Source: an uncultured Clostridia bacterium (lineage in GTDB: Bacteria; Bacillota; Clostridia; Oscillospirales; Ruminococcaceae). From it: 64,000 bases of DNA. Shown here in pieces: positions 11,533 through 13,113 of the stretch. How positions within the stretch are numbered: position 1 is the first letter of the stretch; every line of letters begins with the position of its first letter. The stretch lies in assembly GCA_947625125.1 (NCBI GenBank), contig CANQNF010000009.1, positions 1 through 64,000 on the forward strand. The letters are read 5' to 3'. The translations under genes were made by a program, and so were the position numbers. The notes under the pieces were generated by a model. It saw only the letters and a list, made by a program, of their open reading frames with translations, was not told the origin of the DNA and made no database searches.

Positions 11533-11556
11533 AAACAAAGTATTATCCCCCGCCTC

Positions 11557-11585
11557 TTGATAATTCCGCGGGGATGTGGTATAAT
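11557..11585 (+). promoter_or_regulatory. Promoter of tandem small RNA 1
   Basis: TTGATA (11557-11562), a 17-base spacer and TATAAT (11580-11585) direct transcription to begin near 11592, at the GCAGAGAGCC sequence that opens the first repeat unit. Confidence 0.8.
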
Positions 11586-11592
11586 ATCTTTT

Positions 11593-11660
11593 GCAGAGAG
11601 CCTTGTGGCGGCATGATAAGCTAAAAAGCTTACTCATCGCCGTTGACAGGCTCTTTAAAT
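11593..11660 (+). ncRNA. Candidate small RNA 1 (tandem unit 1)
   Basis: The unit begins GCAGAGAGCC after a consensus promoter. AGAGCC pairs with GGCTCT (11649-11654), closing a long hairpin: GGCG, ATGA and AAGCT on the left pair with CGCC, TCAT and AGCTT on the right around AAAA. A T-rich tract follows. The -35 of the second unit lies in its 3' part. No coding frame with a ribosome site is seen, so an RNA product is inferred; the structure is drawn by eye. Confidence 0.6.
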
Positions 11661-11671
11661 TATGGTATAAT
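11643..11671 (+). promoter_or_regulatory. Promoter of tandem small RNA 2 and the peptide gene
   Basis: TTGACA (11643-11648) and TATAAT (11666-11671) are 17 bases apart, a perfect promoter. The start would be near 11678, where the GCAGAGAGCC motif recurs 86 bp after the first copy. Confidence 0.85.
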
Positions 11672-11678
11672 ATCCATA

Positions 11679-11772
11679 GCAGAGAGCCGTGGCGGCATGA
11701 TAAGCTAAAAAGCTTCCTCATCGCCGTTCGCGGTCAAAAACGACCGACCGCTCCGGCTCTGAGAGCTTTTTT
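11679..11772 (+). ncRNA. Candidate small RNA 2 / peptide leader (tandem unit 2)
   Basis: The first 52 bases repeat unit 1 with a few changes and the same hairpin (GGCG, ATGA, AAGCT against AGCTT, TCAT, CGCC). A second hairpin CGGTC-GACCG follows, and AGAGCCG pairs with CGGCTCT just before GAGAGC and T6 (11767-11772). The RNA would thus be a three-way junction with a terminator-like end. Readthrough would enter the small ORF that starts 34 bases later, so it may act as a separate RNA, an attenuated leader, or both. Confidence 0.6.
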
Positions 11773-11783
11773 CGCGTATCATA

Positions 11784-11798
11784 GCCCCGAAAGGGGGC
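11784..11798 (+). promoter_or_regulatory. Hairpin masking the ribosome binding site of the peptide
   Basis: GCCCC pairs with GGGGC around GAAAG, so the Shine-Dalgarno purines AAAGGGGG lie inside a stable stem. Masked ribosome sites are a common property of type I toxin mRNAs. Confidence 0.55.
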
Positions 11799-11805
11799 AT
11801 GCGTG

Positions 11806-11880
11806 ATGACAGAGAATTTATACATCTTCTTGATTATACTTCTCATCGTTTTAGAAATCATCCGTGAAATAAAAAAGTAA
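11806..11880 (+). CDS. 24-residue hydrophobic peptide, candidate type I toxin
   Basis: The peptide MTENLYIFLIILLIVLEIIR plus EIKK has an uncharged core of about 12 residues and a basic C-terminus, as expected for a membrane-inserting type I toxin. AAAGGGGG lies 8 bases before the ATG; a GTG codon directly upstream is an alternative start. A bidirectional terminator follows at once, and a strong convergent promoter 90 bases downstream would make an antisense RNA over its 3' end. I do not recognise a named family. Coding status rests on the ribosome site, composition and context. Confidence 0.6.
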   Translation: MTENLYIFLIILLIVLEIIREIKK

Positions 11881-11906
11881 CCGCCGAGCTCTTCCAAAGC
11901 GGCGGT
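11864..11906. terminator. Bidirectional terminator between peptide and antisense RNA
   Basis: ACCGCCG (11880-11886) pairs with CGGCGGT (11900-11906). The plus strand continues CACTTTCTTT; the minus strand continues TACTTTTTTATTTC, the better T-run. Both convergent transcripts would end here. Confidence 0.75.
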
Positions 11907-11957
11907 CACTTTCTTTATAGAAATACTTAAACTTTGCTGAGCCGTTCGGCTCTCTGT
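11868..11957 (-). ncRNA. Candidate antisense RNA (antitoxin) overlapping the peptide mRNA 3' end
   Basis: A perfect minus-strand promoter starts this RNA near 11957, and the terminator above ends it near 11868, giving about 90 bases. It begins CACAGAGAGCC, echoing the start of the two sense small RNAs, and folds GAGCC-GAAC-GGCTC at its 5' end. It is complementary to the 3' end of the peptide ORF and its terminator. Arrangement matches 3'-overlapping type I antitoxins such as RatA for txpA. Ends are inferred, not measured. Confidence 0.65.
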
Positions 11958-11963
11958 GCTTTT

Positions 11964-11992
11964 ATTATAACACATACTTTCCCCGTTGTCAA
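11964..11992 (-). promoter_or_regulatory. Promoter of the antisense RNA
   Basis: TTGACA (11987-11992), 17 bases and TATAAT (11964-11969) on the minus strand. No ORF with a ribosome site follows, only the antisense region and terminator. Confidence 0.85.
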
Positions 11993-12009
11993 CCGCTTCG
12001 GGGAATTAT

Positions 12010-12038
12010 TTGACTTTGGCGGCGGGGTATGCTATAAT
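12010..12038 (+). promoter_or_regulatory. Promoter of the alpha/beta hydrolase gene
   Basis: TTGACT (12010-12015), 17 bases and TATAAT (12033-12038), about 58 bases before the start codon. Confidence 0.85.
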
Positions 12039-12102
12039 ACTCGCAAACCATCATTATATTTTTTATATTCCCATCACTTTTCTATTAAAAGGAGAGATTT
12101 TT

Positions 12103-13113
12103 ATGCAGGAGCTTACGCTTACCGAAAAATGGGACAAGACGTTCCCGAAAAGCAAAAAGGTTTCCCACTCTAAAGTCACATTTCAGAACCGTTTCGGCAT
12201 AACCCTTGCGGCGGACCTTTATAAGCCGAAGAATATGCCTAAGCTTTCGGACAAAAAGGCCGCTTTGCCGGCGATAGCGGTCTGCGGACCGTTCGGCGCA
12301 GTCAAGGAACAGGCCTCGGGACTGTATGCGCAGACCCTTGCGGAACGCGGGTTTATCGCCATGGCTTTCGACCCGTCGTTTACCGGCGAAAGCGGCGGCA
12401 CGCCGAGATATATGGCTTCACCCGATATAAATACCGAGGACTTTCTTGCAGCCGTCGACTACCTCTCGACAAGAGATTTCGTCGACTCCGAGAGAATCGG
12501 CATAGTCGGGATATGCGGCTGGGGAGGACTTGCGCTCAGCGCTGCCGCGCTCGATACGAGGATAAAGGCGACCGTGACCTCGACGATGTACGATATGTCG
12601 AGAGTGAACGCAAACGGCTACTTCGATGCCGAAAACAGCGAAGCGGCAAGATATGAAAAGAAAAAAGCGCTTGCCGCCCAAAGGACCGAGGACTTCTTAA
12701 ACGGTTCATATGTTTTGGGCGGAGGAGTCGCCGACCCCGTACCCGAGGGCGCGCCTTTCTTTGTCAAGGATTATTACGACTACTACAAGACCAAAAGAGG
12801 CTACCATGAGAGAAGCCTTAATTCCAACGGCGGCTGGAACGTAATCGGTTGCATGTCATATATGAATTTCCCGATTTTAAAATATATCGGCGAGATAAGA
12901 AGCGCCGTGCTCATGATACACGGAGATATGGCTCATTCCTGCTACTTCACACGCGACGCGTACGGCGATATAATGCGAAGCGGTAAATTTACCGAAAATA
13001 AGGAGCTTATGATAATCCCCGGAGTCGTGCACACCGACCTCTACGACGGCGGCGGCAAAAACGCCATACCCTTTGACAGGATAGTCGGATTCTTTGAGAA
13101 GAGTCTGCGCTGA
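12103..13113 (+). CDS. Alpha/beta hydrolase with cysteine nucleophile motif
   Basis: This 336-residue hydrolase belongs to the dienelactone hydrolase/xylan-esterase-like group often annotated as alpha/beta hydrolase. The nucleophile elbow reads GICGWGG with cysteine at residue 138 where most family members have serine (GxSxG). Candidate acid and histidine are in HGDMAHS (about 274) and PGVVHTDLYD (about 315). AAAAGGAGAG precedes ATG 12103; an in-frame upstream extension is rejected because it runs through the promoter. No signal peptide is visible. The reaction is probably ester or lactone hydrolysis, with substrate unknown. Confidence 0.85.
   Translation: MQELTLTEKWDKTFPKSKKVSHSKVTFQNRFGITLAADLYKPKNMPKLSDKKAALPAIAVCGPFGAVKEQASGLYAQTLAERGFIAMAFDPSFTGESGGTPRYMASPDINTEDFLAAVDYLSTRDFVDSERIGIVGICGWGGLALSAAALDTRIKATVTSTMYDMSRVNANGYFDAENSEAARYEKKKALAAQRTEDFLNGSYVLGGGVADPVPEGAPFFVKDYYDYYKTKRGYHERSLNSNGGWNVIGCMSYMNFPILKYIGEIRSAVLMIHGDMAHSCYFTRDAYGDIMRSGKFTENKELMIIPGVVHTDLYDGGGKNAIPFDRIVGFFEKSLR

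Follow-up and report, generated by a model that had tools for sequence, protein, structure and literature searches.

Does a 24-codon open reading frame (ORF) that runs into a terminator, and that is faced from the other side by a perfect promoter, encode a toxin held in check by an antisense RNA? Here, we address this question for a locus in a 64,000-nt stretch of DNA from an uncultured bacterium of the class Clostridia (hereafter, the window). The initial annotation interpreted this locus as a type I toxin-antitoxin module, and our analysis supports that interpretation: the locus is probably (with a rough probability of 0.83) a type I toxin-antitoxin cassette, located on the chromosome, whose peptide represents a new family.

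The 24-residue ORF, the masked ribosome-binding site, the perfect minus-strand promoter and the bidirectional terminator at the end of the ORF, as initially annotated, were all recovered, with the predicted transcripts of both strands meeting at one hairpin. Although the named features do lie within 11784–11992, the segment to which the module had been assigned, the unit is larger, extending from about 11640 to 12000, with an additional duplication of the promoter and half of the leader at 11557–11644. Its neighbours are genes for an EamA transporter and a dienelactone-hydrolase-like protein. The features are listed below; the start sites of both RNAs are predictions from the sequence.

11557–11644, plus strand: tandem copy of the unit's own promoter-leader start, with the upstream promoter TTGATA-17-TATAAT at 11557–11585
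11643–11671, plus strand: toxin (sense) promoter TTGACA-17-TATAAT, TG preceding the −10 element, 12 of 12 matches
11679–11696, plus strand: predicted 5′ head of the toxin mRNA, GCAGAGAGCCGTGGCGGC; the same motif opens the antitoxin
11696–11783, plus strand: long-leader insertion, an imperfect palindromic element (boundaries by eye)
11784–11798, plus strand: hairpin GCCCC-GAAAG-GGGGC, containing part of the Shine-Dalgarno run
11806–11880, plus strand: ORF of the toxin-like 24-aa peptide MTENLYIFLIILLIVLEIIREIKK, ATG at 11806, stop at 11878–11880
11877–11916, both strands: bidirectional terminator, predicted end of both RNAs
about 11870–11957, minus strand: predicted antitoxin RNA of about 88 nt, consisting of the 5′ hairpin GAGCCGAACGGCTC, a linker and the terminator hairpin; 82.2 bits with the antitoxin model
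11992–11964, minus strand: antitoxin promoter TTGACA-17-TATAAT with extended −10 element, 12 of 12 matches
12010–12038, plus strand: outward promoter TTGACTTTGGCGGCGGGGTATGCTATAAT, facing the hydrolase gene, which starts at 12103

The Shine-Dalgarno run AAAGGGGG (11790–11797) overlaps the 3′ arm of the hairpin at 11784–11798. An in-frame GTG at 11803 would yield a 25-aa product; most homologues start at the ATG. The predicted overlap of the two RNAs, about 47 nt (11870–11916), covers the bidirectional terminator and the last codons, and the plus-strand AAA AAG TAA at the left edge of the terminator is at once the Lys-Lys-stop of the peptide and the outer stem and U-tract of the antitoxin terminator. 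The antitoxin would pair at the 3′ end and does not reach the ribosome site. Both predicted RNAs are unusually stable, with none of 200 shuffles equally so in either case: the antitoxin (11957–11871, minus strand) folds at −32.9 kcal/mol (z −4.85), and the toxin mRNA (11678–11912) has a z of −4.10. Within the 2.4 kb scanned, there are 8 promoter-like sites versus 2.2 (sd 1.5) in shuffles. The initial statement that no ORF lies behind the minus-strand promoter needs qualification: an 85-codon minus-strand ORF exists, but its start, at 11975, is upstream of the predicted transcription start.

Several further elements surround this core. Positions 11577–11644 match the window unit at 91% (BLASTN), and other units of the window genome, on contigs C23 and C20, are likewise preceded by similar promoter/half-leader duplications. 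The outward promoter at 12010–12038 resembles, by eye, the promoter that opens the next unit in tandem arrays, and the cassette may have donated a promoter to the neighbouring hydrolase gene. Inside the toxin leader, a terminator-like hairpin is followed by six T (11755–11772); in the predicted minimum-energy fold, this T-run pairs upstream instead, so that attenuation is possible in the window copy, and the run is shorter in many other long leaders. At gathering score, Rfam detects in the window a single tRNA and no antitoxin family; ohsC/STnc matches in 11540–12050 (E up to 5) were dismissed as chance, the best ohsC match scoring 22.7 bits against a gathering score of 50.

The initial annotation implied a single locus. 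Our searches revealed instead a multicopy family. With the 361-bp window unit as the query, BLASTN gives 25 matches in the window genome, a count that includes the unit itself and fragments. A covariance model of the antitoxin, derived from 31 sequences, finds 12 strong matches there, the window unit among them, with three units in tandem on contig C23 and two on C4. Across the genus (31 genomes), 54 matches to the antitoxin model reach at least 54.8 bits, and they lie in 12 genomes (14 in the raw tally at E up to 0.01); a profile built from the peptide alignment yields 48 matches in the same 12 genomes and none in the other 19. The analyses below use 57 antitoxins of the 77 model rows, that is, these 54 and three more scoring 44.9, 43.4 and 37.9 bits; of the 20 rows dropped (at most 40 bits), 15 fall on the strand opposite to a unit already counted, and the remaining 5 come from other places (G001, G024, G004:C12, G000:C16 and G000:C4:97828). 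In the 390 other genomes of the class, the antitoxin model gives weak matches only (best, 42.6 bits). The neighbouring hydrolase gene has orthologues in 18 other genomes of the genus, and at the 14 of these loci that were searched the antitoxin model has no match (flanks up to 1500 nt, one upstream flank being short), so the site looks species-specific and gives no hint of how the unit arrived. Carriage by phages or plasmids was considered and rejected as far as tested: the exact antitoxin pattern has no match in viral contigs, and the 361-bp unit none in phages or plasmids.

The search for homologous small ORFs with antisense promoters, proposed in the initial annotation, thus produced 48 peptide genes, all of which end at an antitoxin on the opposite strand, with an antitoxin promoter of at least 10 of 12 matches in every unit. 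By contrast, the 57 antitoxins examined include 9 that lack a peptide. Antitoxins without a toxin therefore exist, and no toxin without an antitoxin was found among the 48 peptide genes of the 31 genomes, as expected if the peptide is harmful alone, with the proviso that both search models go back to units that BLASTN with the window unit had initially brought up and are not fully independent, so that divergent toxins without an antitoxin could be missed. The annotation had named, as evidence against a toxin, homologous loci in which the RNA is kept while the ORF has decayed; such decay is marginal, with one of the 48 peptide genes, a copy in the window genome, having lost its normal stop, in addition to the nine antitoxins devoid of any peptide.

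The 48 peptide genes comprise scripted ORFs at 47 of the 57 antitoxins plus the copy without its normal stop. The family peptides are 23–25 aa long and hydrophobic, with a basic end; in the 18 aligned, the hydrophobic core contains neither proline nor glycine, and the PXXXG(C) motif of the Fst/par family is absent. The initial reader could name no family for the peptide, and database searches bear this out: four family peptides have no match in Pfam, including the TxpA/Hol_Tox profile (PF16935), and sub-threshold matches only in NCBIfam and PHROGs. These and other family matches below the cut-off were taken as chance, with one exception discussed below (Hol_Tox of locus L113). In codons outside the antitoxin overlap, calculated from 38 distinct ORFs among the 42 that end in IKK, dN/dS is 0.083, 0.086 and 0.082 in the peptide classes NLY, EEL and QL, respectively, and shifted frames show no comparable synonymous excess. 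These values, about 0.08, indicate that strong purifying selection acts on the peptide. A fourth class, in genome G016, starts with GTG (VEEYLFFCLLLILVIELLDRFYPKK and a variant) and is outside this calculation; in two G016 units, for which the script chose a wrong frame, the GTG-started frame is open to the Lys-Lys-stop. Judging from the architecture, the composition and the lack of toxins without an antitoxin, we infer that the peptide is toxic.

The signals for making the peptide are conserved along with it. The sense promoter has 12 of 12 matches in 31 of the 47 units scored and 8 or 9 in three further units; one more is cut by a contig end. Of 36 distinct leaders, 33 hold the Shine-Dalgarno run in a hairpin (a count without a shuffled control), one of the remaining three being cut by a contig end, and the hairpin arms compensate, CCCC/GGGG being exchanged for CCTCC/GGAGG. 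Leaders differ in length. That of the window unit, about 130 nt, carries the palindromic element, which the short leaders listed lack and which also occurs alone across the genus (loci L016, L040, L042 and L049–L055); BLASTN detects the element 11 times in each of the genomes G006 and G014, which have neither a peptide nor a strong antitoxin match. The long-leader element therefore looks like a dispersed small palindromic repeat that was captured by the toxin leader.

The antitoxin promoter is also conserved: of the 57 antitoxins, 55 have TTGACA, 54 a 17-nt spacer and 52 a score of 11 or 12 out of 12; among shuffled upstream regions, 1 of 1140 reaches 11 matches. Across 51 distinct sequences, identity is 0.94 or higher in 10 of the 12 hexamer columns (0.69 and 0.82 in the other two) and in the TG preceding the −10 element, whereas 12 of the 17 spacer columns are at only 0.33–0.76 identity. 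The RNA fold is likewise maintained: 96.4% of 619 cells pair, compared with 94.6% (sd 0.3) in shuffles, and the covariation score of 0.193 exceeds all 500 shuffles; two of the five covariation measures, two-sided change (104 of 500 shuffles as high) and further pair types (459 of 500), are not above shuffles. The clearest covariation involves the third base of the last Lys codon, with GC in 16, AU in 14 and GU in one of 31 sequences. G-U pairs occupy 43 cells on the antitoxin strand versus 9 on the sense strand, which indicates that the fold of the antitoxin is the one kept. In these counts, the sequences are related and the structure is drawn on the antitoxin strand, so that the events are not independent. 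Among the 12 units of the window genome, the cognate antitoxin is the best partner of each toxin mRNA (12 of 12; mean, −49.6 kcal/mol, versus −11.4 kcal/mol for non-cognate pairs, range −0.3 to −41.3), an advantage that follows from the overlap itself, within which the two RNAs are necessarily complementary. What is informative is the weakness of most non-cognate pairs; some close copies cross-pair more strongly.

The two RNAs may also be able to pair outside the overlap. Both the toxin mRNA and the antitoxin open with the same near-palindromic motif, GCAGAGAGCC..., so that each RNA can either fold its head or pair with the other RNA. In the nine units of the window genome for which it was computed, predicted pairing of these heads amounts to −14.3 to −23.3 kcal/mol; the heads are inverted copies, and the pairing does not lie over the start codon. 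For 35 distinct units, the mean head score within units is 8.42 versus 7.48 when permuted, with none of 5000 permutations as high; when permutation was restricted to within genome or within peptide class, 43 and 3 of 5000, respectively, were as high. Matched heads could have arisen through selection for contact, through gene conversion or because both serve as the same kind of binding site.

Modules built on the same plan also occur outside the genus. A terminator pattern is matched in 40 of 391 genomes of the class, and 59 loci, some overlapping, were examined (29 from the antitoxin model and 30 from the terminator pattern). A script identified 18 distinct modules in which a short ORF runs up to the terminator, one in the window genome and 17 outside the genus, and all 18 have a convergent promoter with 10 to 12 matches. 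Their peptides vary widely, from 20 to 36 aa (for example, MDLNIIFILLVLIAILEIIKNIKK, MEYVIITLVLILLLIISIKK and MNYVTYSDLIQIGILIVSFLVLLQGKKK), and include longer ones ending in KKK. One of these peptides, MNYVTYSDLIQIGILIVSFLVLLQGKKK (L113), hits the Pfam Hol_Tox profile with E 0.01 and 16.1 bits, against a cut-off of 23.3, a weak lead; another module, L091, looks like a disrupted relative of L092. The heads match in these modules as well: in 9, the match is better than in any of 300 shuffles; in 14, no more than 5 shuffles equal it; and in 4, between 13 and 24 do, in a comparison in which 3 of the 18 modules are without a sense promoter, so that their last 130 nt were compared, and the shuffles kept base composition only. 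In plan, though not in sequence, the class modules point to a common ancestry with the window family. Some candidates were discarded: the Agathobaculum match L127 is due to chance, with no unit discernible by eye in its surroundings, and the weak antitoxin-model matches L070, L071 and L082 look, by eye, like ordinary terminators. Separately, in G008, a congener without the family, another small hydrophobic ORF ending in KKK abuts a terminator-like hairpin (L043, 1300–1450); it has no family match and is perhaps another type I module.

The nine antitoxins without a toxin are located as follows (genome, contig and position).

G009: C9:47014
G016: C5:26596, C11:19256 and C29:6227
G017: C5:4262
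G018: C19:947, C3:16000 and C3:16119
G028: C41:8735

Each of the nine is followed, 39–44 nt downstream by coordinate difference, by another antitoxin of the same orientation, which for G018 C3:16119 is itself without a toxin. The promoter matches at 10 or more of 12 positions in eight of them; the ninth, G028 C41:8735, has none and may be decayed or spurious. The 5′ hairpin appears altered, by eye, in G018 C3:16119 and G016 C5:26596. Pairing with the neighbouring toxin is weak, −2.0 to −22.0 kcal/mol, compared with −40.1 to −56.5 kcal/mol for that toxin's own antitoxin, the energies for two G016 neighbours being approximate because the ORF end was wrongly framed. In four of the nine, by contrast, the last 47 nt are 94–96% identical to the antitoxin of a toxin elsewhere, once in the same genome (G017 C5:4262 and C14:15656, −45.3 kcal/mol) and three times in other species. 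The plain reading is that these antitoxins are remnants of deleted toxins in former tandem arrays; a bold reading is that they represent retained immunity. In Clostridioides difficile, an antitoxin is reported to have acted on a toxin other than its own although three or more positions were mismatched (PMC7699646), and, by analogy, the toxin-less antitoxins could act in trans.

How does the cassette compare with known type I systems? As the initial annotation proposed, the layout is of the 3′-overlapping type I kind; the closest counterpart is, however, not txpA/RatA, the example given there, but par of pAD1 (toxin Fst, of the Fst/Ldr superfamily; RNA I/RNA II). In the published description of par, convergent promoters, a shared bidirectional terminator and a Shine-Dalgarno sequence hidden in a 5′ stem-loop are combined with repeats that provide a second complementary region (PMC7472228). 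In the Fst/par family, these are the direct repeats DRa and DRb, which are transcribed in opposite directions and whose complementary region covers the site of initiation. The cassette shares the convergent promoters, the terminator and the sequestered Shine-Dalgarno sequence so described, and differs from Fst in the 23–25-aa peptide without the PXXXG(C) motif, and from par in that the repeats are inverted near-palindrome copies at the 5′ ends of both RNAs, the same motif starting both, and in the presence of up to 12 copies per genome. As in txpA/RatA and Hol_Tox-like systems, the antitoxin overlaps the 3′ end of the toxin mRNA, the terminator loops could kiss and the C-terminus is basic. In txpA/RatA of Bacillus subtilis, the overlap is about 120 nt and RNase III degrades the duplex, a dependence that was demonstrated (PMC3531473). 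The predicted overlap here, about 47 nt, is much shorter and there is no sequence match; on the strength of the overlap, par/Fst is the nearer analogue in layout. In C. difficile, the pairs CD2517.1-RCd8, CD2907.1-RCd9, CD0956.2-RCd10, CD0977.1-RCd11 and relatives are convergent type I systems whose toxins, reported as 30–56 aa long and in several cases on prophages, have a hydrophobic N-terminus and a lysine-rich C-terminus, and whose antitoxins are cognate-specific (PMC6563280, PMC7699646). The present modules resemble these pairs, so described, in being convergent, in occurring in Clostridia and in both peptide termini, and differ from them in the length of the peptide (23–25 aa) and the lack of matches in viral contigs (exact pattern), phages and plasmids. 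In the open-access literature, we found no description of the family, of matching 5′ heads or of such toxin-less type I antitoxins. The layout is thus familiar, and the novelty lies in the family of peptides, in the twin heads and in the antitoxins that lack a toxin.

Taken together, these features suggest how the cassette would work; we infer its transcripts, the degradation of the duplex, the 5′ contact and the action at the membrane. The strong sense promoter would drive a toxin mRNA with its Shine-Dalgarno sequence held in a hairpin, and the strong promoter on the opposite strand an antitoxin RNA of 80–90 nt running into the same bidirectional terminator, such that the two RNAs would be complementary over about 47 nt at their 3′ ends, last codons included. 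Most likely, the antitoxin would capture the mRNA at the terminator loops and stem, exposing the duplex to RNase III, and a second contact could form between the near-palindromic 5′ ends of both RNAs. Should the supply of antitoxin stop, the hydrophobic, basic-ended peptide of 23–25 aa would be made and would presumably insert in the membrane.

Much of this scheme would hold equally if the peptide were a small membrane protein under antisense control with a regulatory or structural role, rather than a toxin, because the evidence for translation and antisense control applies equally to both. We nevertheless consider such a role quite unlikely: every peptide gene found is accompanied by an antitoxin, while antitoxins without a peptide occur, and up to 12 antitoxins in a genome, tandem arrays and the lack of a peptide match in 19 of the 31 congeners look like marks of a selfish or addiction element rather than of a core regulator. 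Known type I toxins are small, with a hydrophobic core and a basic end, and the peptide resembles them in all these respects. It is far less probable still that the unit is an RNA-only or mobile palindromic repeat element with an incidental ORF. The palindromic element of the long leader is indeed a dispersed repeat, and units are found at many sites in the genome, some in tandem, but the purifying selection on the peptide largely refutes this explanation, and we rejected it; the conserved Shine-Dalgarno hairpin, the short leaders without the palindromic element, and genomes G006 and G014, with the repeat and without the cassette's strong antitoxin or peptide match, also speak against it.

A separate question, one of ancestry and compatible with a type I cassette, is whether the family is a member of txpA/Hol_Tox or Fst that diverged beyond recognition. 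The same layout and the class relatives, with their longer KKK-ending peptides and the weak reach of L113 to Hol_Tox, would fit such a descent; the profile searches with the four peptides, the missing PXXXG motif and an overlap shorter than that of txpA/RatA argue against it, and on balance we regard it as unlikely.

A type I toxin-antitoxin cassette thus remains the preferred explanation of the window locus, and it can be extended, tentatively, to a more far-reaching proposal that we consider possible, albeit doubtful. Under this proposal, the modules would form a Clostridia-wide class of ultra-short, "twin-headed" type I systems, the heads of which are kept matched by selection, with the two RNAs docking both by their heads and at the terminator that they share. 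In this genus, the antitoxin half would now have become a free-standing immunity gene, with a promoter, without a toxin and beside a different unit. Its match would be a toxin at another site of the same genome or in another species, making it a form of anti-addiction at the level of RNA.

Type I systems easily escape detection, since gene callers miss peptides this short and profiles cannot cope with their variety. Here, the family was found through DNA similarity and a covariance model of the antitoxin, and the model, together with the terminator pattern, led to modules in other Clostridia. The combination of a Lys-Lys-stop fused to the terminator, a convergent promoter with an extended −10 element and matching 5′ heads provides a handle for further searches. 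Furthermore, cross-talk and anti-addiction among RNA-regulated toxins become directly testable in a system where many paralogues, most of them pairing only weakly with one another, share a genome and where some antitoxins have no toxin.
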